DNA of 64,000 bases from Ptychodera flava (lineage: Eukaryota > Hemichordata > Enteropneusta > Ptychoderidae): the NCBI RefSeq assembly GCF_041260155.1, contig NW_027248288.1, forward strand, positions 62,001 through 126,000, given 5' to 3'. Under the pieces are notes generated by a model. The model saw nothing but the letters and a program-made list of their open reading frames with translations. It ran no database searches and was not told the DNA's origin. Positions 1,275-59,060 of the stretch are shown here, piece by piece; position 1 is the stretch's first letter, and each line of letters begins with the position of its first letter. The position numbers and the translations under genes were made by a program.

Positions 1275-4200
1275 TTAAAAGCTTTGCATATCATTCAACT
1301 CTTTTCTCAATCTCATAGCATGAAATACATAGACAGCTAAACACTGTAGAGTATTTGCATCATCTGTCGTCAAAAGTCGAATAAAATTTCTTTCTGAAGG
1401 TGGATTTAAGTACATTGCTGGGATATACTTCTGTCTCAGTCTTTCAAAAAGTGTACAAATCAAAAGAAAGTGGTACTCATTTTCAATTGCATTACTGTCA
1501 CATAGTAAACAAACTCGTTGTTCTCTATCAATGCCATGTTTACGGTCTGTCTCAATGCGTAGATAATGTGAAGAACAACGTAGCCTGGCAAGTGATTGAA
1601 TATGAGCGGTAACTGTTACAGAAAATAAATAGTTTGCAGGTTCAAGAGAAAATTTGATTTCTCTATAAAAGGAAAGCTTATCTAGCGAACAAACTTCACT
1701 ATACCACTTAATATGCAGATATTCTTTGAACTTGTTTACAAAGGTATCCATAAACCTATTTATATCTTCAATTTCCTGTCTTTCCCATACATCTTGTAAA
1801 TTACATATATACAATAATTTTTTTATGTGGCTTACCCAAGTTGGTTTTGATCTAATACCAGATTGTTCAATATAGTAAAGCATATTGTAACATTTTCTGG
1901 GGTATCTATTTGTGGCATTTTAATCAGTTTTGTCCAGTATTTAATACACTTTTTTGCTGTATGCAAATATATGGATAACGCCCGCACTCCCCCAGAACAG
2001 CAACATTCGGAGCATTACTAGATACTCCTAGGAACATCCTACAAGCATGATAATGGATTCTCTCAATACTCGTATACATATTGTAAACCCACACTTCTGA
2101 TCCATATGTTAAAATAGGGAGAATAATGGTATCAAAGATACTGAAAAAAGTATCAAAATGAAACATTCCATTTTTTCTCGTGACTCTACAGATACCCATG
2201 AGGGATTTAAGTGCTTGTTGTGCTAATGTTTTTGTAGCTACAGACCATTTTAGTCTACATGAAAATATTACTCCTAAATACTTGTAATACGATATAACTT
2301 TGACACGTTTCTCCGCTAAAATTCCATTTCTCGTATTTAGAAAGAATACCACCACTTTTAAATACAATGATTTTTGTCTTTGTCATGTTCACTGTTAATT
2401 TCAAAGTTTTACAGTACAACTCCAAAGAATTTAACAGGCGTTGTATGCCGATAACAGTATCCGAAAAGAGCACAACATCGTCTGCAAATAACAAACAGAA
2501 AATTCTACAATATCGGGGAAGATTGAATGCCCTGATGTCCCCTGTCATGAATTACACGGATTAATTCATTGATAAAAAATGAAAATAAAAACGGACTAAC
2601 CATACAACCTTGGCGAGACCAAGTGGACAAGCGAAATAGTCAGTGTGTTGATTATTGACACGAACACATGACTTGACATCTTGATACATGGCATGGAGTA
2701 TTTTAAACATTTTCCCTTTGATTCCACCTCTTAAAAGGATGTACCATAGTCTTTGACGTTCCACAGTGTCGAATGCCTTTGGAAAAATCGACAAAAGCAC
2801 AGTAAAATTTACCACGTTTGCGAGAAATATACTTTTCAATGACAGAATTTAGAATGAAAATGTTGTCGATGGTCGAATAGCCTCTACGAAACCCGACCTG
2901 TGCTTCATCAATTTCCAAAGCGCATCAGATCAGAAGGTCAAACGAGTATTTAGAATCGAAGTGAAGATTTTACTGAAAATACTGAGTAAAGATATGCCCC
3001 TATAATTTTCAGGACACTCAACAGAACCACTCTTGTAAAGTGGAATAATAATGGCTCTAGCCCAATCACTAGGGAAGGTTCCGGACTCAAAAAGTCTATT
3101 GAAAAGAACATTTAAATATGGAATCAAAAAATGACTCGTTGATTTGAAAAACTCTCCTAGGATACCGTCCGGTCCAGCTGATTTCCCACTTTTTATCTTA
3201 CATATTGCTCTCTCAATCTCATCATTTGTGATAGGAGAATTTAAAATATCATAGCCAACATCTGTTTCATTGTCAAAAAAATCTACAGAGCTCAAAAAAT
3301 TTTCCAACTCATCAGACATGGAAAAATCATCTTCAGCAGATTCATTGGGTACCAAAAGTCTATTAAAGTAATCATAAAATTTATTAAGCATAACATTAAT
3401 TCGTACACAATTTATAGATGTCAACCTTCTCAATGACGCCCAAAACATTTTTTGATCAGAAAGAGAGAAAATGGTCAATTTCCTTTTCAAATCATCATTG
3501 TAAACCGTTTTTTCTCCCTACAAACTCTAAAATCTTTACAAACTTCTTTATATATTTGAAGATCATTTGTACTAATTGTTTTCCTAAATGTTCTTAGCAA
3601 ACGATACTTTTTGTTTTTTAACTCAGTACATTGTTTGTCAAACCAAACAGGCTGCTTTCTATAGTTTGCTGTATTTGAAATCGTTTTCACCATGTCACAT
3701 TTCTCAGCAGCAAACATAAATGAATCAGTTATCTTCCTAACAAAAGTACATACATCTGAATTACAGTCTGCAACAAGTTCATCGAAAGTCGACTTTACAT
3801 TATTTGATTGCAAAATGCTGTTAAAAGAAGCTGCTTTTTCTGTAAGCCAGAAACACTTTTTCAAAGTTACACTTTCATTATTGCGTGTTAAGTCAAAACT
3901 GTACAGAGAATTTAAGCAAAAAGTTATAGGAAGGTGATCAGATTCTGAACGAATCTCTACTGCAAATGAAGACAAACAATTTGAAGAGATGCGATGACAC
4001 AATTGCGTAATCAACTACACTGGTACCGGCGTTAGCAATGCATGTCAATTCGCCATGATTGGAATCTGCACCAACTCTGCCATTGACGATATGTACGTTA
4101 AATGAACAACATAGTGAAAGAGAGAAAACGCCGTAACCATTTACCTCTTTGTCTTTGGACACCCGTGGCATGTTGAAACAGTCGGTGTTGTACAAATGTG

Positions 4201-5045: not shown

Positions 5046-6048
5046 TCAGTCATGAAATGTCACAACAATTGGACATGGTTTGTCTTTCAAATTGACTGTT
5101 ACACGGTGGGCTGTCACAACTTGTCTGTCGTTCCATGTCTTTTTTCCAACATGTTGGTTTAAGAGCTCAACGACTGTCTCCTTACATTGGTCGAAAGTTT
5201 CGCAAGAAAATTCATGGACGCCATATAAGCTGACGTTGTCTCTTCTGGAAAACGATTCCAACCTCTCTGAATCATCGTCAAGCTGGTCAATGCGATCGAC
5301 AATCACATGAAGTCTCTCAGAAATAGCAGAAAAATCGAAATTTGTAAAATGTCGATTTTCTTTTAGATCATTCACCATCTTCCATTTTATGGACAGATGC
5401 TCGAAGTTCTTTGAAGTCATTGCCCAAGTCAACGTATGAATTTCTCAGCTCAGCCTCCGAATTTTTCAGCTCTTGCAATTCGGCATGTATTTCCTTGCGC
5501 GTATTTTTCATTTCGGTCAAAATATCACATCTCAGAGATTCCATAGCTTCGAGTATTTCTTTTTCTGGGCCTGGATTAAGTTCTACATCGCCAGATAGCT
5601 TAAGCAATCTCACAACAAACGGTTGAGAGACAGCTTTCATCTCAGTACAGGTAAACGTTACGTAATTTTGTCCGTCTTGCAATATGTCCAGCAAACTGTT
5701 GTTCAAAAATGGCGCGAAACTGTAACCGTGGTCCAGAACGATCGGAAGAAAAGTTCTAGTTGAAAAATTAAACATACAGTGGTTTTGGTCTTCTGAGTGG
5801 CATACGACCGAATCTTCGTCAAGTAGCTTACCCAGTAGATCCGTCCCCGAAACCAGCAAATCTGCACCGCAAATAGTGTTGGTACATACCATCAGGCAGA
5901 CCAATGTTCTATACAGCAATTCTTGTGACAAGGGCGTCTTCGTTCGGCTGTATGGTGAGGTGGAGATATTTCGCCAATTTTTGGTTGGGAGAATCTCCCT
6001 ATCCGACTTCTCCAGCTCATGGTATCGACACCCATCTTGAAAAACCAT
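5046..6048 (-). pseudogene. LINE ORF1 with N-terminal 2A-like sequence
   Basis: The first frame (6048-5368, 226 codons) begins with a region of about 145 residues containing a hydrophobic stretch (about residues 45-60). The 2A-like motif LLKLSGDVELNPGP occupies residues 148-161. A charged, coiled-coil-like helix rich in Glu and Lys follows (about 162-226). A second, overlapping frame (5432-5046) carries FSRRDNVSLYGVHE, typical of the RNA-binding part of LINE ORF1 proteins, so one frameshift separates them near 5400. A 2A peptide makes the ribosome skip a bond between Gly and Pro, which would release the N-terminal segment from the RNA-binding part. 2A-like sequences are known from LINEs of sea urchin and other invertebrates. 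Confidence 0.75.
5566..5607 (-). other. 2A-like ribosome-skipping peptide coding site
   Basis: The minus strand encodes LLKLSGDVELNPGP. It matches the canonical D-V/I-E-X-N-P-G-P core with no deviation, and the expected Leu/Ser-Gly context precedes it. The skip would fall between the last Gly and Pro. Confidence 0.85.
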
Positions 6049-13222: not shown

Positions 13223-15040
13223 AACACAAACCACAGGACTTTGCCAAAACAAAACTGGCATTATTATATTTGACCATTGATATGAATGTACTTCATTAGA
13301 ATATTATTATTGCAATTGTGTGGCAAGATATTTGATTTTGGAATTAAACGTAACAGTGTCATTTCACTTTACATGGTTATCTAAGGTGAAAACTATTCAC
13401 ATACAAAACCGGCTATTTCTGAGCATTTACATGTTTGACAATTAAAACGAATGTGCGCTACTTGAATACGATTTTATGATGGCATTTGTGCACGAAAGCT
13501 GTGATTTTTAGGTTTCAAAAATGTGTTATTTTGTAATCTATGGCACACGCTACGAGCAATTTGTTTACCTTCGTGCATTTGTATATTTTTAACAAATGAC
13601 GTTAACTTATTCCAATGGAATAAGATAAAAAGAAGCTCTCAGGTGTGCAATCATTGAAATGTTATCAAAAAAATGTCAATCGTGTACAAACATTAGTCTT
13701 CCCAGGTAACTATGAAAAAATAATTTTAAAAACTGGTTTTATCTGTTAAATTTATTAATTTGACAGAACATCCCTTTTTCTGACCCACATGTCCGTCTGT
13801 TCCGATTGTTTCTTATTCCTACACAGCGTTACAATTTTAACAAGGACAAATTATTTAAAATATGATCCCCAGTCATTGAAACACGGCTGTTTCACTCGAT
13901 AACCTCAGACAATTGGTTTATGACTTTTTTGCCCTATTCAGAGTGATTTATCGTGTGACATGCTTAAGAGAAAAGTAGAAAAGGGCCCCTCACTCAGTTT
14001 TTTTCGTAACTTCCCCATAATCTCCTCTGCCTCCCCCGTCATTAATGTCCCCTTTACCTAAAACGATCCCCTGAAAGAAGGTATCAGCTGTGATCGGACG
14101 TTTGTCATAATAATGAAGGGTGTGATTTTCATTTCTTTTCGAATTCTATTTTGAGCTTATGCTGCATGGTTGTTGGAAATTGTTTGTGACGTGCATGTAT
14201 TATAAAACGAAGTGCTACATAGGCGACCCTATCCTGTCAGTCTTGCGACAAACATGATGTCACTTAATCATGTTTTTCATTCCATTCTTAAACTCTTTCG
14301 TATCTGCTTGAATAGCTTTCAGTATTGATAAAACCAGGTCGGGCCCATTTCTTCGCGTTCCTCGAATTCAGGGTCAACAAACTCACCTCTGCTTGTCAAT
14401 GTCATTTGTCTTGTTAATGGGCCCTGGTTAAGGTCCACAAGCAGGCAAGTTGTAACAGAGTAGGGACATGCGGCATTGCTACAAAGTCCGCATTCGTGAT
14501 ATTGAATATTAGCAATGGCGAGACGCGACGTGCACAGGTTACGTTATTGGTCTGCCATCCGAAAATCCATAAAATTCATTGAAAATCACATTCAATTTTC
14601 TGTTGTTTTCCACAATCCCATCGTTTAAACTATTATCCTAGAGGTAGCGTCTGCCCAGTCATAGTAGTTTTCCACTCCACGAAACAAAAGTTTTGCTCGA
14701 TAGTGACAACTCCAATAACACAAGTGCAACGACCAAGTCTGTACAACAGGTTGTTGAGCGGCGACCACACTGTGATAGGCGTGTACTGGTCGAGTGTCAC
14801 CACTTTCCAACTGTGCGTACCTCTGTGTATATTTGTCCCAGGTCAGAGTAGTCTCTCTCTGTCGGATTTTCGCGCAAAACTTAAAAGGATACAACCGCCA
14901 TCATAACGGACAGGGGAAAAGACGATGATGCTGTAACTTCAGATGCATTATTTTGTTTAAGGTATGGTGAACATGTAAAAAAGCATCGAAATTTGACCTT
15001 GTCTTGCTTTTCATTGCGGCGCTTATATGTTGTGTATGTA

Positions 15041-15112
15041 TAGGATAATGCACGAGTGGAGTGCAATCGTTCAATATCTGAACGATTGCACGACACGAGT
15101 GCATTATCCGAC
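15041..15112. repeat. Left-end palindrome of Crypton unit 1
   Basis: Arms GTGCAATCGTTCA and TGAACGATTGCAC flank a 5 bp loop. Outer, less perfect arms (GGATAATGCAC and GTGCATTATCC) extend it. Compared with unit 2 the central 43 bp or so is absent, between two GTTCA copies. Confidence 0.8.
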
Positions 15113-15332
15113 TTACAACACGTGACCTTGCACCTGCGAGTGGGCACGGACCAATCAGATTACAGCAATTAATTAATGGCCATTTTGAAAGTGCACACCT
15201 GTGTATAGTACTATTTCATTGGCTAAGGATAAACACATGGGAATTTCCACGTGTTCTACACGGAGCGTAGACGTGGCTTTCCAACGTGCACGTTTTTGTC
15301 ATTGGTGACACTGCAGCTGAACTGCAAGCACC

Positions 15333-17622
15333 ATGCTGAGTGACAGCGATGAAGAAGTGTTCATTACACAAAATACTTTCCGAAACCCCACTGAAAGTGA
15401 TAACCCTGAAGAAGACGACTGGCTGTTTCAAGACTTTGGAGAGTTACTGGGTGAACTGGGAGAAGGCTCGGCACAAGTAGAAAGTCTCGCTGTCGACGTT
15501 GCGCCTCCTGGTATGTCAAAGCCTGTTCAACTGCTTGTAAGAGACACGTTGCCTGTTCATTCTGACACACCTTGCCCCTCCCGTTTGGATACAAAAAGTG
15601 ACAAAGAGATAGAAAAAATGGCGATTGAAAGGATTCCTAAAAACACCCTAAACAAAAATAGTTGGACCGTAAACACATTTAATTTCTGGAAAAACGAGAG
15701 AAATAAGTTGGCCTCAGACCCGTCATTTAATATTAGTGTAATACATCCTAAACTCGAGGAAATGACGAAAGATGAATTAAATTTTGCATTGTCACGCTTT
15801 GTTTCTGAAATAAAGAAAAAGATGTGAATGATTATCCTGGACAAAGTTTGTATGAATTGGTGATGAGTACACAAATCCATTTGTCGGTAATGGGTAAAAG
15901 CTGCTTGTTTCTGAATGACCCCACCTTTAAACAGTTAAAAAATACTCTAGATTGTATCATGAAAACAAGGAACGCTAAAGAAATTGGTACGGAAAAGCGA
16001 CAGGCCAAGGTGTTGAGTGTAGACGATGAGAACAAATTTTGGAGCAGGAAATTGATTGGCGATTTTACACCACAAACTCTATTGGACGCTCAGGTCGTCC
16101 TTTTCGGAATAAATTTGGTTTGAGAAGGGGCCAAGAGCACAGGAATTTACGCCCTGGCCAAATTTGCAAAAAATACTGTGAGATTGTTGGGAAATATTAT
16201 CTGGAATACACCGAGGACGTGTCAAAAACAAACAGTGGTGGCTTGGCATCAAGGAAAGTGAAGCGTAAAGTTACAACTGCGTTCGAAAACACAGACTGCA
16301 AGGAGAGATGCATTGTGCGATTGTATGATACATACAACAAACTTTGGTAAGAATCCTGTTTTGCTTCAGTGTTGAAGTGTACTTTACTAGAGCCATGGTA
16401 GATGTTCCAAGTATATCGTGCCTTGATTATTTTGGTTGTGGCGCTTTCCACTGCGCATAATGTGAACAATTAATTCGATTGTCGGTCTACTGGGTCGTCC
16501 ACTACGACGCTCGAAATTATTAATTTTCGGTGGTTTTGTAATATTCTGAGTAAAATTTGTTGAACGAGAAATATTGGCTGATAGAGGGCGCCTTTCTTCA
16601 AAATTAAGCCCAGTGAACTTATATATTTTTATGAATAAAAACCTTGGGCATATTCTGCCAATAGCTGAAATTATCTGACAAGCATGGATAACGAGATGCA
16701 TACAACCTTAATGTTAACGTTGACATGATCAGTATACTATATTACTTCACCAAGTCCAACTTTTAATTGTATCCCTAACCGATTTCGGATAATTAACACG
16801 TTTATGTCAATTTAGTCCTTCAGATCGCCCTCAAGACGTAAACTATTTGCAGCCGGCCAAGAAAATAACCGCAGATTGTTGGTGTTCTACGATGCCAGTT
16901 GGGAGGAATACACTAATGAAAACTGTGGCAAGACTCTGCGAAAACGCGGGAATTGAAGGATACTATACGAACCACAGTCTACGGGCCACAGCTGCCACTC
17001 GCTTATTTGCCGATGGTATGGACGAACAACTAATTGCTGAAAAAACGGGTCATCGAAGTTCTGCTATTAGATCTTACAAGGTAGTAATAAATTACAACAT
17101 AGTAAATTATAACTCGAGACGTTTATTCATATAATTGATCAAAAAGAAAACTTGGTATCATTAACTTTGTATAAACTGATAAACTTTTGGGTACAAACGG
17201 AAAAGTGGTACCGAATGAATGACGGTAGTTGGACTATCATGCGATGGCATTTCTAAAATGTTTATATTTGCTCTGGTTTCAATGCCGTGCATTTGCCGAT
17301 GTATTGTTCACGTGCATAATCAAAATCTTAACTGTCTCATTTAATCAGTTTTGTATTTGTGTTACAGAGAACAAGCATCGAACAGCAGTTCAAGGTGAGC
17401 AAAGTTTTGCAAGGAAGGCCACCTAAAATGGCGAAGTTGGCAGATTTTGGGCCGGGAAAACAGTCGATAAAAGAGGAGTGTGACGAAGAATTGAAGTGCC
17501 AGGTGGAAGAATGTTCGAACGTCGAAATTCATAAAGAAAACAAGAGCAGCGTCCGTTACGTTCATTTTGAGGCCGATCTTCCAGAGGGAGCAAACATATC
17601 TTTGAATTTCGATAAAAAGTAA
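15333..17622 (+). pseudogene. Crypton tyrosine recombinase, copy 1
   Basis: The exons are about 15333-16346, 16816-17080 and 17368-17622, with GT-AG introns. The acidic N-terminus begins MLSDSDEEVFITQ. An N-terminal core-binding-like segment (TLNKNSWTVNTFNFW) follows. The first catalytic Arg region lies near 16120 (LRRGQEHRNLR). The second exon supplies TNHSLRAT (H-x-x-R), TGHRS (His) and RSYK (nucleophile Tyr), the expected tyrosine-recombinase set of the DUF3504 type. Such enzymes cut and rejoin DNA at short sites through a covalent Tyr link. Frame changes near 15822 (against copy 2) and near 16100 break exon 1. The last exon encodes an 84-residue acidic tail, and ATTAAA near 17658 may be the polyadenylation signal. 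Confidence 0.8.
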
Positions 17623-17776
17623 TGTTGTAATGTAGACATTCAATTAAATCATGGTGTATTAAAGTCCCTTCTACTGTCATTTGTTGTTGGGTGTTTTTGT
17701 AGTGTTTCTGTTGTGTCGGTCACTGTGTGGTAACGGCCACCTGTTGTCAAGTTTGCACTCGTTTGATTTCGATATT

Positions 17777-17914
17777 AGATATTGCACCGGTGCAGTGCAA
17801 TATCTAGATATTGCACCGGTGCAGTGCAATATCTAGATATTGCACCGGTGCAGTGCAATATCTAGATATTGCACCGGTGCAGTGCAATATCTAGATATTA
17901 CACTGTACCGGTAC
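17777..17914. repeat. Array of four 29 bp recombinase-site-like inverted repeats
   Basis: Four identical units occupy 17777-17892. Each has arm AGATATTGCAC, a 7 bp spacer CGGTGCA and arm GTGCAATATCT. A degenerate fifth unit follows to about 17914. The 11-7-11 geometry matches tyrosine-recombinase core sites such as those with 13-8-13 or 7 bp overlaps. That they are sites for the adjacent enzyme is inference. Confidence 0.85.
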
Positions 17915-17999
17915 AAAATTGAGAACAGGTCGATGTTTATCTCGCAGAGAACTGCACGACAAAACAAAGACAATGGCCAAGAGCAGTGTTGTAAGTATA

Positions 18000-18112
18000 G
18001 GATAATGCACGAGTGGAGTGCAATCGTTCAGATATTGAACGGCACGAGGGCCGTAGGCCCGAGTGCCGTTCAATATCTGAACGATTGCACGACACGAGTG
18101 CATTATTCGACT
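18000..18112. repeat. Left-end palindrome of Crypton unit 2
   Basis: Perfect 28 bp arms (18018-18045 and 18063-18090) flank the 17 bp loop GAGGGCCGTAGGCCCGA, which is itself inverted. Imperfect outer arms extend to about 18000 and 18112. Confidence 0.9.
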
Positions 18113-18331
18113 TACAACACGTGACCTTGCACCTGCGAGTGGGCACGGACCAATCAGATTACAGCAATTAATTAATGGCCATTTTGAAAGTGCACACCTG
18201 TGTATAGTACTATTTCATTGGCTAAGGATAAACACATGGGAATTTCCACGTGTTCTACACGGAGCGTAGACGTGGCTTTCCAACGTGCACGTTTTTGTCA
18301 TTGGTGACACTGCAACTGAACTGCAAGCATC

Positions 18332-20621
18332 ATGCTGAGTGACAGCGATGAAGAAGTGTTCATTACACAAAATACTTTCCGAAACCCACTGAAAGTGATA
18401 ACCCTGAAGAAGACGACTGGCTGTTTCAAGACTTTGGAGAGTTACTGGGTGAACTGGGAGAAGGCTCGGCACAAGTAGAAAGTCTCGCTGTCGACGTTGC
18501 GCCTCCTGGTATGTCAAAGCCTGTTCCACTGCTTGTAAGAGACACGTTGCCTGTTCATTCTGACACACCTTGCCCTCCTGTTTGGATATAAAAAGTGACA
18601 AAGAGATAGAAAGAATGGCGATTGAAAGGATTCCTAAAAACACCCTAAACAAAAATAGTTGGGCCGTAAACACATTTAATTTCTGGCAAAACGAGAGAAA
18701 TAAGTTGGCCTCAGACCCGTCACTTAATATTAGTGTAATATATCCTAAACTCGAGGAAATGACGAAAGATGAATTAAATTTTGCATTGTCACGCTTTGTT
18801 TCTGAAATAAAGAAAAAAGATGGAAATGATTATCCTGGACAAAGTTTGTATGAATTAGTGATGAGTATACAAAACCATTTGTCAGTAATGGGTAAAAGCT
18901 GCCAGTTTCTGAATGACCCCACCTTTAAACAGCTAAAAGATACTTTAGATTGTATCATGAAAACAAGGAGCGCTAAAGGAATTGTACGGAAAAGCGACAG
19001 GCCATGGTGTTGAGTGTAGACGATGAGAACAAATTTTGGAGCAGGAAATTGATTGGCGATTTTACACCACAAACTCTATTGGACGCTCAGGTCGTCCTTT
19101 TCGGAATAAATTTTGCTTTGAGAGGGGTCAAGAGCACAGGAATTTTTACGCCCAGGCCAAATTTGCAAAAAATACTGTGAGATTGTTGGGAATATTATCT
19201 GGAATACACCGAGGACGTGTCAAAAACAAACGTGGTGGCTTGGCATCAAGGAAAGTGAAGCGTAAAGTTACAACTGCGTTCGAAAACACAGACTGCAAGG
19301 AGAGATGCATTGTGCGATTGTATGATACATACAACAAACTTTGGTAAGAATCCTGTTTTGCTTCAGTGTTGAAGTGTACTTTACTAGAGCCATGGTAGAT
19401 GTTCCAAGTATATCGTGCCTTGATTATTTTGGTTGTGGCGCTTTCCACTGCGCATAATGTGAACAATTAATTCGATTGTCCGGTCTACTGGGTCGTCCAC
19501 TACGACGCTCGAAATTATTACTTTTCGGTGGTTTTGTAATATTCTGAGTAAAATTTGTTGAACTAGAAATATTGGCTGATAGAGGGCGCCTTTCTTCAAA
19601 ATTAAGCCCAGTGACCTTATATATTTTTATGATAAAAACCTTGGGCATATTCTGCCAATAGCTGACATTATCTGACAAACATGGATAACGAGATGCATAC
19701 AACCTTAATGTTAACGTTGACATGATCAGTATACTATATTACTTCACCAAGTCCAACTTTTAATTGTATCCCCAACCGATTTCGGATAATTAACACGTTT
19801 ATGTCAATTTAGTCCTTCAGATCGCCCTCAAGATGTATACTATTTGCAGCCGGCCAAGAAAATAACCGCAGATTGTTGGTATTCTACGATGCCAGTTGGG
19901 AGGAATACACTAATGAAAACTGTGGCAAGACTGCGAAAACGCGGGAATTGAAGGATACTATACGAACCACAGTCTACGGGCCACAGCTGCCACTCGCTTA
20001 TTTGCCGATGGTATGGACGAACAACTAATTGCTGAAAAAACGGGTCATCGAAGTTCTGCTATTAGATCTTACAAGGTAGTAATAAATTACAACATAGTAA
20101 ATTATAACTCGAGACGTTTATTCATATAATTGATCAAAAAGAAAACTTGGTATCATAAACTTTGTATAAACTGATAAACTTTTGGGTACAAACGGAAAAG
20201 TGGTACCGAATGAATGACGGTAGTTGGACTCTATCATGCGATGGCATTACTAAAATGTTTATATTTGCTCTGGTTTCAATGCCGTGCATTTGCCGATTTA
20301 TTGTTCACGTGCGTAATCAAAATCTTAACTGTCTCACTTAATCAGAGTTTTGTATTTGTGTTACAGAGAACAAGCATCGAACAGCAGTTCAAGGTGAGCA
20401 AAGTTTTGCAAGGAAGGCCACCAAAAATGGCGAAGTTGGCAGATTTTGGGCCGGGAAAACAGTCGATAAAAGAGGAGTGTGACGAAGAATTGAAGTGCCA
20501 GGTGGAAGAATGTTCGAACGTCGAAATTCATAAAGAAAACAAGAGCAGCGTCCGTTACGTTCATTTTGAGGCCGATCTTCCAGAGGGAGCAAACATATCT
20601 TTGAATTTCGAGAGAAAGTAA
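18332..20621 (+). pseudogene. Crypton tyrosine recombinase, copy 2
   Basis: The exons correspond to copy 1: about 18332-19343, 19813-20075 and 20367-20621. The segment that is broken near 15822 in copy 1 is readable here (DGNDYPGQSLYELV). Other lesions occur: a lost base near 18388, a lost base near 18573, and a 2 bp loss near 19933 that shifts the frame before the TNHSLRAT and TGHRS motifs. Because the two copies carry different lesions, most damage came after duplication. The acidic C-terminal exon is intact and nearly identical to copy 1. Confidence 0.8.
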
Positions 20622-20775
20622 TGTTGTAATGTAGACATTCAATTAAATCATGGTGTATTAAAGTCCCTTCTGCTGTCATTTGTTGTTGGGTGTTTTTGTA
20701 GTGTTTCTGTTGTGTCGGTCACTGTGTGGTAACGGCCACCTGTTGTCAAGTTTGCACTCGTTTGATTTCGACATT

Positions 20776-20913
20776 AGATATTGCACCGGTACAGTGCAAT
20801 ATCTAGATATTGCACCGGTGCAGTGTAATATCTAGATATTGCACTGGTGCAGTGTAATATCTAGATATTGCACTGGTGCAGTGCAATATCTAGATATTAC
20901 ACTGTACCGGTAC
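20776..20913. repeat. Second array of 29 bp inverted repeats, with varied spacers
   Basis: Four units have the same arms as the array at 17777. The spacers are CGGTACA, CGGTGCA, TGGTGCA and TGGTGCA, and some right arms read GTGTAATATCT. A degenerate fifth unit ends near 20913. It occupies the same relative position, downstream of the recombinase stop. Confidence 0.85.
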
Positions 20914-21253
20914 AAAATTGAGAACAGGTCGATGTTTATCTCGCAGAGAACTGCACGACAAAACAAAGACAATGGCCAAGAGCAGTGTTGTAAACTGCGC
21001 GAAAGAACACATTGTGCTATGCAGTCGTTGTTTTTACTATCATCTAAAGAGCGTGTCAAATCTTGACTCTAGTTACAGTGTATGAATAAAATCATCATTA
21101 AACTGTATCACATCGTTCTTGTTGGTCATTCCTGCAACCACAATTCACCTTGGAAAATTAAATTGCTCGAAACTGGCGAGGATTGAAGGAGTACACCGTA
21201 TGAAGATCGCACGTTTGCATACAACTTGGCCGACGCTAACTAGCCATGTATGC

Positions 21254-23889: not shown

Positions 23890-26363
23890 GGGACTGGACA
23901 CAAATTACAGGGGGGGTGGGCCGGTGTTTTTTTGGGGTGGGTCGCCATATTTCGCGCAAGCATTTTTGAAGGGTCATAAAATTTTGTGCAAGCCTATGGG
24001 GGAGGGTCACCTTTTTTTATGCATCAAAGCTGAAATTGCACGTGCACGTATTAAAGAATATGGAATACTGAAAAAAGAAAAATACCTCCTGGCACTTTCA
24101 TTTTCTGCCATTTCCATTTTCGGCGCGCCCTTCGGGCGCAAGTTTAAGGGTATAATAAACAATGTATTGATGATCCAAGCAGCCACATTGATTTAAGTTG
24201 TCGTGATTTCTACTTATCCAACTCCTCTATTGTGCATAATTGTCCCCTATTATGACTCTTTCAATAACAATTTGGGAGATCACTTATTTGATATCATTCT
24301 CCCATTGGCAATACATTGGGTATAGGTCGGTGTCAAATGTTCATGTCGCTGTATGGACATTTTTTATTTTTTGAGGACATTGACAGAATACAAACTATTC
24401 AGAATAGTGCAAAATGTCATCAATAACAACTGGAAGCTTCAGGTCGAACAACTTTTGAATAACAATTTAGGATCAGATAACCTATGAGTTATTTGTAGTT
24501 TCCTCATAGCCTACAATGCATAGTGAATCAACATTTCGATGAAATTCCAAAATCAAATTTCTTGCACAACCATGGACTTGAAACCACTCTAGTCTAATCA
24601 TTAACATTAATACTAATAATTAGGTGTACATAAATGCACAGATTTACTTAGTTTTGTATTGGAAAAAAATATTCATAGTTTTGTCATAGACTGCTATGCA
24701 TAGTGAATCGACATTTCAGTGAAATTCCAAAATCAAATTTCTTGCACAACCATGGACTTGAAACCACTCTGGTCTAATCATGAACATTAATACTAATAAT
24801 TAGGTGTACATAAATGCACAGATTTACTTAGTTTTGTATTGAAAAAAAAATTCATAGTTTTGTCATAGACTGCTATGCATAGTAAATTGACATTTCAGTG
24901 AAATTCCAAAATCAAATTTCTTGCACAACCATGGACTTGAAACCACTCTTGTCTCATCATGAACATTAATACTAATAATTAGGTGTACATAAATGCACAG
25001 ATTTACTTAGTTTTGTATTGGAAAAAAATATTCATAGTTTTGTCATAGACTGCTATGCATAGTGAATCGACATTTCAGTGAAATTCCAAAATCAAATTTC
25101 TTGCACAACCATTGCTTGAAACCACTCTGGTCTAATCATGAACATTAATACTAATAATTAGGTGTACATAAATGCACAGATTTACTTAGTTTTGTATTGG
25201 AAAAAAAATATTCATAGTTTTGTCATAGACTGCTATGCATAGTAAATTGACATTTCAGTGAAATTCCAAAATCAAATTTCTTGCACAACCATGGACTTAA
25301 AACCACTCTGGTCTAATCATGAACATTAATACTAATAATTAGGTGTAAATAAATGCACAGATTTACTTAGTTTTGTATTGGGAAAAATTATTCATAGTTT
25401 TGTCATAGACTGCCATGTATAGTGAATCAACATTTCAGTGATATGCCAAAATCAAATTTCTTGCACAACCATAGACTTGAAACTACTCTAGTCTAATCAT
25501 GAACATTTATACCAATAATCAAGTGTACATAAATAGACAGATTTGCCAAGTTTTGTGTTTTTGAAACAATTATTCTTAGTTTAGTCATAGACTACAATGT
25601 ATAATGGATGAACTTTTAATGCAAAATTCAAAAAAAAAAGTTCTTGTACACAGATGCACGTGTTACCACCCTCTTCTAATCAAGTACAATTATGTCAATT
25701 ATTCAGGGTCCATATATGCACAAAAAGTGCATATTATTTTTTGTGAAAGATTTTTTTTACAGTTTTGTCATAGACTCCCATGTATAGTGGATCAACATTT
25801 TGAGTGAAATTCCAAAATCAAATATCTTGTTCACATGTGCACTTGTAAACAACCCATGCTAATCAAGTATATTTATATCAGTTATTAAACATCTATAGAT
25901 GAACAGATATTGCTAGTTTTATATTGGAAAATACACGTTCATAGTTTTCTTATAGTCAACTACCATGTATAGTGAATCAACATTATCGATGAAATCTAAA
26001 AATTACATTGTTTGTACACGCATGCACTTTTTACCTGACACTTCAAGCAAAGTACATTTACATGAATTATCACACACATATGATTTGAAATTTTTTGGAC
26101 AAAGCGTTATATCAGCCACATTTTGCCTTCCTTTTGGGATGGGGATTTCAAAAGTATAGCAAGTCAGAAGGGGGGGGGTCTTGAACACATTGCGGGTTTG
26201 TTGGGGGGTATTGAGTAACAGGGGAGGGTCATTTATTTTCATGCACGGATAAGGGGGAGGGTCACTAATTTTTGTGCATGAACTTTTGAAGGGTCACTAT
26301 TTTTGATGCAGCGGTGTTTCGAAAAACACCGGCCCACCCCCCCTGTAATTTGTGTCCAGTCCC
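23890..26363. mobile_element. Non-autonomous TIR element with internal satellite (element B)
   Basis: The terminal inverted repeats are perfect over 42 bp (23890-23931 and 26322-26363) and begin GGGACTGGACACAAATTAC. TGA lies directly outside both ends (23887-23889 and 26364-26366). Just inside both ends are GGGGGAGGGTCA plus AAATTTTTGTGCA motifs in the same orientation. The outer sequence GGGACTGGAC and the 3 bp TNA duplication match element A, so they are one family. No transposase is encoded. PIF/Harbinger is the best superfamily guess. Confidence 0.85.
24480..26090. repeat. Satellite-like tandem array, 180 bp period, about nine copies
   Basis: GAAATTCCAAAATCAAAT recurs at 24541, 24721, 24900, 25080 and 25260, a spacing of 179-180 bp. 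Diverged copies follow near 25440, 25621, 25806 and 25990. The first five are nearly identical and later ones decay steadily. The array fills most of element B. Confidence 0.9.
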
Positions 26364-37602: not shown

Positions 37603-40361
37603 AAGTTTATAAGCATTTTAACCAGGACGATCACTCCACTTTGTCTATGCATGTCCGTATTCTTGAAAAATATACCATTCAACCAACAGTCCCACACTTA
37701 GTTCACCATTCCGTAGACAGAGAGAATACCACTGGATTAGACAGTTAGGTACCGCAATGCCTTATGGTTGTAATGACAACATCAAAGATATAGGCAATCT
37801 CTCAAGTCCTGGTTGTTCAGAAGTGAATGTGATGGGCCTATTTGAATCTTCTGTCCGTAGAAGACGTAGTCATGGACATAGGCGTTACCATCGGCCTAAA
37901 TTGGATACATCAGCTACCTCCAATTGCCATGACAAATTTCATGAACTGCTTCTTTTATTGCAGAAGCCTTTAGGTCTCCATCACATTATTTGCTCTTTCC
38001 ATCAAGGACTTGAGAAGGTTGCATGTCTATGCATTGGGATTGTCTTTGACAGATCCGAACAAACAACCGTACAGACTGGTTAGTATTATTGCTGATATTG
38101 CACTATACAGACTATACAAGCCTGTTCGTGCTGAACCTATGACTGATGATCATCGTCATTTCATACATCTTCCATTTACTAACAAAGGAATTGATGCCAT
38201 TAATATCAGCAATATACTTCACAACAAAAAGGTTACATCAACTATACCTGTATACTTTAAGAACCAGTCTGTACCTATTCTGTCATATCAATACACCAAG
38301 ACAATCTCCAATAAAATATTCAATTACAATAAGGCATTGTGGCACTTAAAAATTGATGAATTCCTTCAAACACCAGCATCCTGTGACTGCTCTACATCTC
38401 CCTTCAAATATACTCCAGTTGGCCATGTCATTACTGGTGATCTGAACTTGGTTGAACATCACCACCTTCGTAAGATATTATCTTGTGGACCCAAGTTCAG
38501 AGAACCTCGCAGGATCAACTGGAACCATAATTTTAAGATCATTATGGACTCTGTTGAAGAATATGCCAGGAAATGGGCTAAAAGGGAGGATGTAGAGCTG
38601 GACACACTGTCAGAATGGGTCAAATCTGTGAGGAAAATAGTGCGTGGCCGTATTGGTCGACTAAGATCACATGTTTGCAGAAGACCGTATTCTGTATTTA
38701 AAGATCCTGATGCTGTTAAGTGTTTGAATGATATCCATGACAAATATGTTGTCGTCCCTGCTGATAAAGCTGCCAATAACATTGTATTTGTCTGTAAGAA
38801 GTATTATTTTGAATGTCTTATAGACGAACTTGGTGTAACTAAGACCTCCACCAACTCCACTTACAGACAATCAATGTTCAACAAACCATAAGTCATTCAT
38901 GGATAATTTTTATATTACAACAAAGGATGACCATAATAAGTTGCCTAGCTTATACTGGATACCAAAGCTCCACAAAACACCTTACAAGCTAGGTTTATCG
39001 CAGGATCTTCAAAATGTTCAACAACAGAGTTATCGAAGATACTGACTTCTGTTCTTTGTACTGTTAAACGGGGACTTCAAGCATACTGTGATGTTGTCTT
39101 TTCTCGGAGTGGTATAAATCAAATGTGGATATTAAAAATTCGAAGGAACTCTTGGAAAATTTGAAATCAAGATCTGTTTCAAAAATAACATCTATTAAAA
39201 CTTTCGATTTTTCCACATTGTATACCACAATACCACATGATAAATTGAAAGAACGCTTGAAAAACATCATCAACCAAGCATTTTTCTACAAAAACGGTTC
39301 ACGCCGTTACAAATATGTGGTATTAGGGTATAATTCTACATATTTTGTTAAAAATATTACTAACGCTAAAGTGTTTTATACCGAGAAAGACATTATCAGT
39401 ATGCTTGATTTCCTCATTGACAACATATTTGTTGAATTTGGAGGACACATTTACCAACAGTGTATAGGAATTCCCATGGGCACTAACTGTGCTCCCTTAC
39501 TTGCCGACTTATTTCTGTTCTCATACGAGGCAGAATTTATCCAAAACCTTATCAAGCAGAAAAAGGTCTCTGTAGCTCGTACTTTCAACCTTACATTTAG
39601 ATACATAGACGATGTTATTTCATAGAATAACTCTGAATTCAGTAAATATCTCGCTATGATTTATCCTCCAGAATTGGAGATTAAAGAAACTACAGAAACG
39701 GCCTCTTCTGCTTCATATCTGGACATTTTACTTGAATTTGACTCTAATGGTCACCTTTCTACTAGACTATATGACAAGAGAGATGATTTCAACTTTAGTA
39801 TAATCAATTTTCCACACCTCATCAGTAATATTCCACTCTCACCTGCTTATGGGTTATACATTTCCCAGCTTATTCGATATACAAGAGCATGCAGTTCATA
39901 TGGTGATTTTGTAGAGAGACATGGCCATCTCTCTTACAAACTGTTAAATCAAGGTTACACCAGAGCAAGACTTGTCTCTACATTCAAACGCTTTTTTGGC
40001 AGGTATCGCAAGCTGGTAGATAAATACAATATCTCTCTTCGACAAATGATCACTGATGGCATCGGTGACATGGGGCCTTAGTTAGTGACTACTACCTATC
40101 TGACTTACAGATTGATATATGGCGGGTGCCACATGTGGGGCAGGATGCGCTTACTATTTTCGAAACACCTGACATCACTTCTTGGTCTTTTGGCCAGAGG
40201 TCCATATATCTTTCTTTCATGACTTTGACTTTGTTTGTGTACTGTCTATTTATTGTCTGTTCTGTGCTGTTTTGTGTCTATGTTTACAACTATTGTCTTA
40301 CAAACTTTGACCTAGTATTATTGGATTATGGATTGGTATGATTGCGATTATTTTTCTTACA
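37603..40361 (+). mobile_element. Penelope-like retroelement, copy 1, 5'-truncated
   Basis: The readable product starts in the linker after the GIY-YIG domain, just beyond where copy 2 carries that domain (TTATAAGCATTTTAACCAGG at about 37605). It continues through MPYGCNDNIKDIGNLSSP and a Penelope-type reverse transcriptase. RT landmarks are VVPADKAANNIVF, FDFSTLYTTIPHDKL, GIPMGTNCAPLLADLF and RYIDDVIS (near 39600). The C-terminal thumb region includes YLDILLEF and RLYDKRDDFNFSI. Arrangement and motifs fit the Naiad-like group with N-terminal GIY-YIG. The last sequence shared with copy 2 is ATGATTGCGATTATTTT near 40359. The copy is broken in a few places and looks young, given its close identity to copy 2. 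Confidence 0.8.
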
Positions 40362-56312: not shown

Positions 56313-59060
56313 CACGGACATGACCAAACCTATAAGTCCCCCCGGACGGTGTCCGTGGGGACTAAATATACCATCCAACCAACAGCCCCACACTTAGTTC
56401 ACCATTCCGTAGACAGAGAGAATACCACTGGATTAGACAGTTAGGTACCGCAATGCCTTATGTTTGTAATGACAACATCAAAGATATAGGCAATCTCTCA
56501 AGTCCTGGTTGTTCAGAAGTGAATGTGATGGGCCTATTTGAGTCTTCTGTCCGTAGAAGACGTAGTCATGGACATAGGCGTTACCATCGGCCTAAATTGG
56601 ATACATCAGCTACCTCCAATTGCCATGACAAATTTCATGAACTGCTTATTTTATTGCAGAAGCCTTTAGGTCTCCATCACATTCGTACTTCATTATTTGC
56701 TCTTTCCATCAAGGACTTGAGAAGGTTGCATGTCTATGCATTGGGATTGTCTTTGACAGATCCGAACAAACAACCGTACAGACTGGTTAGTATTATTGCT
56801 GACATTGCACTATACAGACTATACAAGCCTGTTCGTGCTGAGCCTATGACTGATGATCATCGTCATTTCATACATCTTCCATTTACTAACAAAGGAATTG
56901 ATGCCATTAATATCAGCAATATACTACACAACAAAAAGGTTACATCAACTATACCTGTATACTTTAAGAACCAGTCTGTACCTATTCTGTCATATCAATA
57001 CACCAAGACAATCTCCAATAAAATATTCAATTACAATAAGGCATTGCAGCACTTAAAAATTGATGAATTCCTTCAAACACCAGCATCCTGTGACTGCTCT
57101 ACATCTCCCTTCAAATATACTCCAGTTGGCCATGTCATTACTGGTGATCTGAACTTGGTTGAACATCACCACCTTCGTAAGATATTATCTTGTGGACCCA
57201 AGTTCAGAGAACCTCGCAGGATCAACTGGAACCATAATTTTAAGATCATTATGGACTCAGTGAAGATTATGCCAGGAAATGGGCTAAAAGGGAGGATGTA
57301 GAGTTGGACACACTGTCAGAATGGGTCAAATCTGTGAGGAAAATAGTGCGTGGCCGTATGGTCGACTAAGATCACATGTTTGCAGAAGACCCTATTCTGT
57401 ATTTAAAGATCCTGATGCTGTTAAGTGTTTGAATGATATCCATGACAAATATGTTGTCGTCCCTGCTGATAAAGCTGCCAATAACATTGTATTTGTCTGT
57501 AAGAAGTATTATTTTGAATGTCTTATAGACGAACTTGGTGTAACTAAGACCTCAACCAACTCCACTTACAGACAATCAATGTTCAACAAATCTGAAATTT
57601 TGGCAAACCATAAGTCATTCATGGATAATTTTAATATTACAACAAAGGATGACCATACTAAGTTGCCTAGCTTATACTGGATACCAAAGCTCCACAAAAC
57701 ACCTTACAAAGCTAGGTTTATCGCAGGATCTTCAAAATGTTCAACAACAGAGTTATCGAAGATACTGACTTCTGTTCTTTGTACTGTTAAACGGGGACTT
57801 CAATCATACTGTGATGTTGTCTTTTCTCGGAGTGGTATAAATCAAATGTGGATATTAAAAATTCGAAGGAACTCTTGGAACATTTGAAATCAAGATCTGT
57901 TTCAAAAATAACATCTATTAAAACTTTCTACCACAATACCACATGATAAATTGAAAGAACGCTTGAAAAACATCATCAACCAAGCATTTTTCTACAAAAA
58001 CGGTTCACGCCGTTACAAATATGTGGTATTAGGGTATAATTCTACATATTTTGTTAAAAATACAACTAATGCTAAAGTGTTTTATACCGAGAAAGACATT
58101 ATCAGTATGCTTGATTTCCTCATTGACAACATATTTGTTGAATTTGGAGGACACATTTTCCAACAGTGTATAGGAATTCCCATGGGCACTAACTGTGCTC
58201 CCTTACTTGCCGACTTATTTCTGTTCTCATACGAGGCAGAATTTATCCAGAACCTTATCAAGCAGAAAAAGGTCTCTGTAGCTCGTACTTTCAACCTAAC
58301 ATTTAGATACATAGACGATGTTATTTCATTGAATAACTCTGTATTCAGTAAATATCTCGCTATGATTTATCCTCCAGAATTGGAGATTAAAGAGACTACA
58401 GAAACGGCCTCTTCTGCTTCATATCTGGACATTTTACTTGAATTTGACTCCAATGGTCACCTTTCTACTAGGCTATATGACAAGAGAGATGATTTCAACT
58501 TTAGTATAATTAATTTTCCACACCTCATCAGTAATATTCCACTCTCACCTGCTTATGGGGTATACATTTCCCAGCTTATACGATATGCAAGAGCATGCAG
58601 TTCATATGGTGATTTTGTAGAGAGACATGGCCATCTCTCTTTCAAACTGTTAAATCAAGGTTACACCAGAGCAAGACTTGTCTCTACATTCAAACGCTTT
58701 TTTGGCAGGTATCGCAAGCTGGTAGATAAATACAATATCTCTCTTCGACAAATGATCACTGATGGCATCGTGTGACATTGGGCCTTAGTTAGTGACCACT
58801 ACCTATCTGACTTACAGATTGATATATGGCGGGTGCCACATGTGGGGCAGGATGCGCTTACTATTTTCGAAACACCTGACATCACTTCTTGGTCTTTTGG
58901 CCAGAGGTCCATATATCTTTTCTTTCATGAATTTGACTTTGTTTGTACCGTCTATTTACTGTCTGTTCTGTGCTGTTTTGTGTCTATGTTTACACCTATT
59001 GTCTTACAAATTTTGACCTAGTGTTATTGGATTATGGATTGGTATGATTGCGATTATTTT

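Follow-up and report, generated by a model that had tools for sequence, protein, structure and literature searches.

How are the ends of an animal Crypton marked? The question is raised by two such elements that lie head to tail in a single, eukaryotic-looking window of 64 kb (38% G+C), the whole stretch of DNA that we analyzed, each of which carries an array of short repeats beyond its tyrosine recombinase gene. The excerpted text of the Crypton survey (PMC3212892) states that terminal repeats were not found in animal Cryptons, a published trait of the elements then known that the present pair does not share. The first-pass annotation of this DNA had remarked that a multi-site array at the end of a Crypton is not a standard description. 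Among the matches listed in searches of the open-access literature, none described an array at a Crypton end. As far as these sources extend, the survey being represented by excerpts, the terminal motif array looks new for animal Cryptons. With a candidate site repeated at each end, end marking becomes accessible to a binding assay, and such a site would also offer a first guess at the DNA preference of the vertebrate regulators derived from Crypton recombinases.

A head-to-tail Crypton pair and its right-end arrays

Copy 1 lies at 15038..17994 and copy 2 at 17995..20993, both on the forward strand; each is recognized by its Pfam domains, their ends are placed where homology between the copies stops, and the two are 97.5% identical over 2945 aligned columns. 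The tyrosine recombinase gene is broken in both copies by frame shifts between conserved pieces. Coding begins at 15333 in copy 1, where the gene appears by eye to hold two introns, and the stop codons end at 17622 (copy 1) and 20621 (copy 2). Pieces of the gene match the Pfam families QRICH1 (4.4e-17), DUF3504 (3.4e-8), and Phage_integrase (2.6e-10), and across the eight pieces of the units that were scanned these recombinase-related domains alone rise above the cut-off, with DUF4083 and DUF3435 as weaker matches. The same Pfam scan of eight pieces, which covers part of the reading frames, found neither a reverse transcriptase nor a DDE transposase in either element. The encoded protein is of the recombinase type: the catalytic set R, HxxR, H, Y is present, with residues assigned by eye (HSLR, GHRS, and RSYK in 16814-17080) and with the first catalytic R on a separate frameshifted piece of the gene. 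Among solved proteins the recombinase fragment is closest in sequence to IntI4, an integron integrase (E 4.2e-4), followed by XerA (0.05). Because of its QRICH1, DUF3504, and Phage_integrase matches, the element fits an animal Crypton as the excerpted survey describes one (PMC3212892), and it resembles the animal CryptonA of Kojima and Jurka (2011; PMC3212892, in excerpt) in having a tyrosine recombinase of the DUF3504/QRICH1 type as its sole recognized protein. The first coding stretch (15333-16346) differs between the copies by 30 substitutions in 1017 columns, against 6 in 468 for intron 1, and on these counts the excess of change in the coding stretch is the reverse of what selection on a protein would lead one to expect.

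It had been claimed from a first reading of the letters that each tandem Crypton bears, about 155 bp past the recombinase stop, four 29-bp units built as two 11-bp arms around a 7-bp spacer, and both copies bear this out. Array 1, in copy 1 (17777..17892, forward strand), consists of four perfect repeats of AGATATTGCAC-CGGTGCA-GTGCAATATCT, and array 2, in copy 2 (20776..20891, forward strand), of four units with 1, 1, 2, and 1 mismatches. The spacers, as had also been noted, are identical in copy 1 and vary in copy 2, where they read CGGTACA, CGGTGCA, TGGTGCA, and TGGTGCA in order, but that account needs amending, since the copy 2 arms vary as well, the right arm being GTGTAATATCT in two of the four units. 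Adjacent copy 2 units have variants in common, GTGT in units 2 and 3 and TGG in units 3 and 4. Each array is followed by a diverged fifth unit in inverted orientation (17893..17921 in copy 1 and 20892..20920 in copy 2, both on the reverse strand), which keeps the 7-bp spacing with altered arms and has the core TACAC-TGTACCG-GTACA. Tandem Repeats Finder independently calls both arrays, with a period of 29 and 4.6 and 4.5 copies. Conservation of the array between the copies is no better than that of the remainder (5 substitutions in 116 columns versus 52 in 2890), and these substitution counts speak against strong constraint on the array in these dead copies.

The array motif recurs at the left ends

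The exact pattern TGCAC-N7-GTGCA occurs ten times in the 64 kb window; 100 dinucleotide shuffles of the window gave 0.08 on average and 2 at most. The first-pass annotation had proposed a genome search for whether the arms occur only at Crypton ends, and within this window the sites are tied to the element, in that all ten exact sites lie inside the two Cryptons and none lies outside. In the window 106 pairs of inverted 5-mers enclose a 7-bp spacer, and TGCAC accounts for 10 of them, the runner-up for 4. Six of the ten exact sites are in the arrays, the exact pattern having been lost in two of the four copy 2 array units, and the other four are at the left ends (15049, 15087, 18006, and 18086), where they form an inverted pair in each copy that was absent from the earlier account. 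The end opposite the array thus repeats both the motif and its spacing.

The outer left-end site, L1, lies at 15043..15071 in copy 1 and at 18000..18028 in copy 2, on the forward strand in both, and shares 21 of 29 letters with the array unit in each; the inner site, L2, is inverted and lies on the reverse strand at 15087..15103 in copy 1, where it reads TGCAC-GACACGA-GTGCA, and at 18086..18102 in copy 2. One in 1000 shuffles of the left end matched the L1 score. The best 29-mer match to the array unit outside the Cryptons, on the reverse strand, reaches 20 of 29, and the 21 of 29 scored by L1 is therefore modest by itself. The case, as read from the sequence, rests on the exact TGCAC-N7-GTGCA pattern together with the clustering of its half-sites.

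That clustering is plain at both ends. Of the 21 half-sites (TGCAC or GTGCA, the palindromic GTGCAC scoring twice) of copy 2, the two terminal 300-bp stretches hold 20, with 9 at the left and 11 at the right, and the 2398 bp between them hold 1; in copy 1 the counts are 9 at the left, 2 in the interior, and 14 at the right, with 23 of 25 near the ends. DNA outside the elements gives a background of 0.54 half-sites per 300 bp. With the four array units set aside, 2 of the 11 half-sites at the right end of copy 2 remain. At its left end GTGCA/TGCAC is the top 5-mer with strands merged (9, with the runner-up at 7), and a count of 9 was reached in none of 2000 mononucleotide shuffles, a test in which the motif had been taken from the array before the left-end count was made. 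Such a concentration of a single motif at the two ends, with few occurrences between them, is the layout of subterminal transposase-binding repeats as in IS607 and hAT elements, the hAT transposases being DDE enzymes.

Comparison of the 14 listed sites suggests that the spacer is not free. Nine are exactly TGCAC-NN-GTG-NN-GTGCA or its reverse complement, and the other five comprise two with central GTG and an altered arm, one with GTA, and the two fifth units with TAC. The middle of the spacer is accordingly GTG (CAC on the other strand) in 11 of 14 sites, most of which are copies of one another. On this alignment the 7-bp length is constant and the letters vary around a mid-spacer GTG/CAC.

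Both ends are also palindromic on a larger scale. The left-end palindrome of copy 2 (17986..18120, 135 bp) includes L1 and L2 and crosses the junction between the copies. The DNA fold of 17986-18126 has an energy of -60.7 kcal/mol (z -17.57), which none of 200 shuffles equaled, and the hairpin at 17986-18120 is interrupted by three symmetric 2x2 internal loops, each with GA opposite GA, an arrangement in which folded DNA can form stable tandem G-A pairs. The corresponding hairpin of copy 1 (15043-15109) is without the 42-nt tip of copy 2, which lies between CGTTCA direct repeats. At the right end the array region (17760-17930) folds at -56.7 kcal/mol (z -14.90), and an imperfect palindrome centered in array 1 extends over 17703..17966 (73.9% over 268 columns by blastn). 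Its inner flanks without the four units, 17703-17758 versus 17911-17966, pair as well in only 1 of 2000 shuffles (2 of 2000 for copy 2); its outer parts, 17691-17748 versus 17925-17985, are not significant, with 479 of 2000 shuffles as good. One family in two near-identical copies amounts to one observation for most of these tests, and the left-end evidence in particular counts as about one independent observation, because the copies are near-identical and L1 and L2 lie within one palindrome.

Element boundaries and the possible role of the sites

Homology between the copies begins with GTATAGG (15038 and 17995) and ends with TGTTGTAA (17994 and 20993), and the junction (17987..18001) reads TGTTGTAA/GTATAGG. 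The copies are directly seen to meet outside the array, 102 bp past its fourth unit. This position bears on the first-pass claim that two arms around a short overlap represent the core-site geometry of tyrosine recombinases. Core sites, in the excerpted survey, have arms of 11 to 13 bp and a spacer of 6 to 8 bp (PMC3212892), and the 11-7-11 unit falls within that published range, so that the geometry stands, in an element that does carry a recombinase; the crossover role that the geometry implies is not supported by this pair, whose junction lies 102 bp outside. In this one tandem pair none of the boundaries (15038, 17994/17995, and 20993) falls inside a spacer. A search of the three junctions for a core-type inverted repeat (arms of 9 to 13 bp, spacer of 5 to 9 bp) found none above the random-position median. 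We rejected the array units as crossover sites for the present pair, the junction being outside both the array and L1.

All three boundaries have the 6-mer TGTTGT, at the junction and again at 15028-15033 and 20986-20991, and it could be a terminal direct repeat, a possible but weak suggestion given that a 6-mer in common with the right end occurs in 5.3% of real 21-mers and in 13.0% of shuffles. A repeat of this kind would fit fungal and stramenopile Cryptons, which have terminal direct repeats of 4 to 6 bp, according to the survey excerpt (PMC3212892).

To what, then, might the 29-bp units correspond? We give about an even chance to the reading that they are putative subterminal sites to which the Crypton's tyrosine recombinase itself would bind, in an array expanded by slippage. 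One protomer would occupy each 11-bp arm, hence two each unit; the two inverted sites in the hairpin-forming palindrome of the left end and the four to five sites of the right end would concentrate the recombinase at either end and aid the pairing of the ends (or of circle and target), and strand exchange would take place beyond the array, in the terminal few base pairs (TGTTGTAA/GTATAGG). An animal Crypton would be expected to pass through a circular intermediate and to integrate by recombination. Slippage in the palindromic right end probably built the array out of one or two ancestral sites, a history suggested by the palindromic array, by the variants common to copy 2 neighbors, and by the difference at the hairpin tip. 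We infer the recombinase binding, the role in end pairing, and the slippage origin alike, and a host factor could bind the units in place of the recombinase.

The main rival, a real possibility though a doubtful one, is a neutral minisatellite in which replication slippage multiplied one ancestral terminal palindrome, leaving a copy number without function even if the single ancestral site was perhaps a recombinase site. Much of the array is as such a history would have it: DNA as strongly palindromic as 17760-17930 slips readily, the 42-nt gap in the copy 1 left hairpin sits between CGTTCA repeats as slippage would leave it, the GTGT and TGG variants are common to adjacent units, and the array has no special conservation between copies. 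A minisatellite alone leaves unexplained why motif and spacing recur together at the opposite end, where GTGCA/TGCAC is the top 5-mer. It is distinctly unlikely, in our estimation, that the motif instead binds a host transcription or chromatin factor, the ends serving as promoter, terminator, or insulator. Such elements can lie ahead of the coding start at 15333, as the left sites do, or past the stop, as the array does, but the presence of sites at either end, among them the inverted pair of the left terminus, would fit transposition better than transcription.

Two further readings concern the chemistry of the ends more directly. That the units are themselves crossover sites, with a 7-bp overlap in each, was the reading of the first-pass annotation and agrees with the arm and spacer lengths of the excerpted survey (11 to 13 and 6 to 8 bp; PMC3212892), but homology that runs from 15038/17995 to 17994/20993 places the join neither inside the array nor inside L1, and we hold this reading to be very improbable. 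Least probable of all, and barely credible in our view, is that the ends are folded single strands whose palindromes are recognized as hairpins. Integron attC sites are recognized in this way, the left end folds over 135 nt (z -17.57) with its three GA-opposite-GA loops, and among solved proteins IntI4 comes closest to the recombinase fragment; that match, however, is weak and general, with XerA at 0.05, and paired binding sites in duplex DNA look palindromic too.

Beyond this locus, the reading of the units as recombinase binding sites could be extended to a broader proposal, which is tentative and rather unlikely to hold. Animal Crypton recombinases would know their ends by a repeated TGCAC-NN-GTG-NN-GTGCA, laid out unequally, one end having a hairpin with an inverted pair and the other a tandem array, with several dimers forming a filament that pairs the ends, and the domesticated ZMYM2-4, QRICH1, and KCTD1 may keep a similar site preference.

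Known systems, further copies, and other repeats in the window

Extra recombinase sites are familiar from bacterial and phage systems, in which lambda Int and TnpI/Tn4430 have arm-type or accessory sites beside the core site, lambda arm sites differing in sequence from lambda core sites. Extra tyrosine recombinase sites beside the core would be the likeness of these systems to the Crypton pair. In contrast to CryptonA as excerpted from the survey (PMC3212892), the present pair has the 11-7-11 motif at both ends, in a palindrome at the left and a tandem array at the right. A similar layout is described, in excerpts of a study of endogenous phaeoviruses of Ectocarpus that carry a tyrosine recombinase (PMC13236599), as a conserved inverted repeat at the left and imperfect direct repeats at the right; the excerpts term these termini potential recombinase binding motifs and give a very short core of two bases. 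The likeness drawn here to the Crypton pair is one of layout, and the Ectocarpus elements (PMC13236599, in excerpt) are unlike the pair in being virus-derived, from a brown alga, and not Cryptons. Multiple subterminal repeats are occupied by TnpA dimers in IS607 elements, which are without terminal inverted repeats, and by hAT transposases, as an excerpted account has it (PMC6188088); they too resemble the Crypton pair in their multiple subterminal repeats, with the difference that IS607 TnpA is a serine recombinase. Salmon Cryptons and the human Eulor5/6 repeats, also animal Crypton families, have termini strongly conserved across vertebrates, according to the excerpt consulted (PMC5753468), and a related motif in those termini would lower the novelty of the present one.

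Further copies were sought at both the protein and the DNA level. In the viral_contigs collection three DNA patterns (array, left end, and 5' region) returned no stretches, and the recombinase fragment returned five candidate stretches with no confirmed relative; in genome_contigs, 1 of 76 candidate stretches was confirmed for the recombinase fragment, in a bacterial MAG (L001), with 40% identity over query residues 30-70. Phages and plasmids gave no DNA-level match to copy 2. The looser motif TTGCAC-NN-GTG-NN-GTGCAA was found in 35 viral stretches, once in 34 of them and twice in one (L007). Across the partial contig DNA of these 35 stretches and L001 (367,314 bases), L007 alone had more than one TGCAC-N7-GTGCA, its pair sitting within a longer direct repeat of its own, and an array like that of the Crypton pair was present in none of these 367,314 bases.

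The window holds other repeats apart from the Cryptons. An open reading frame at 5368-6048 on the reverse strand carries DVELNPGP, which by eye we take to be a 2A-like self-separating peptide, and near it, at 2930-3490 on the same strand, is a frame that by eye is reverse-transcriptase-like. Pfam placed no family above the cut-off on these two frames, and together they may belong to a LINE that carries a 2A sequence. A closely similar pair of reverse-transcriptase element copies lies at 38010-39625 and 56453-58775 on the forward strand, presumably Penelope-like to judge by eye; RVT_1 appeared, below the cut-off, in one of the three frames scanned from this pair. A satellite of 180 bp in 7.4 copies occupies 24496-25829, over part of which a 359-bp period matches better.
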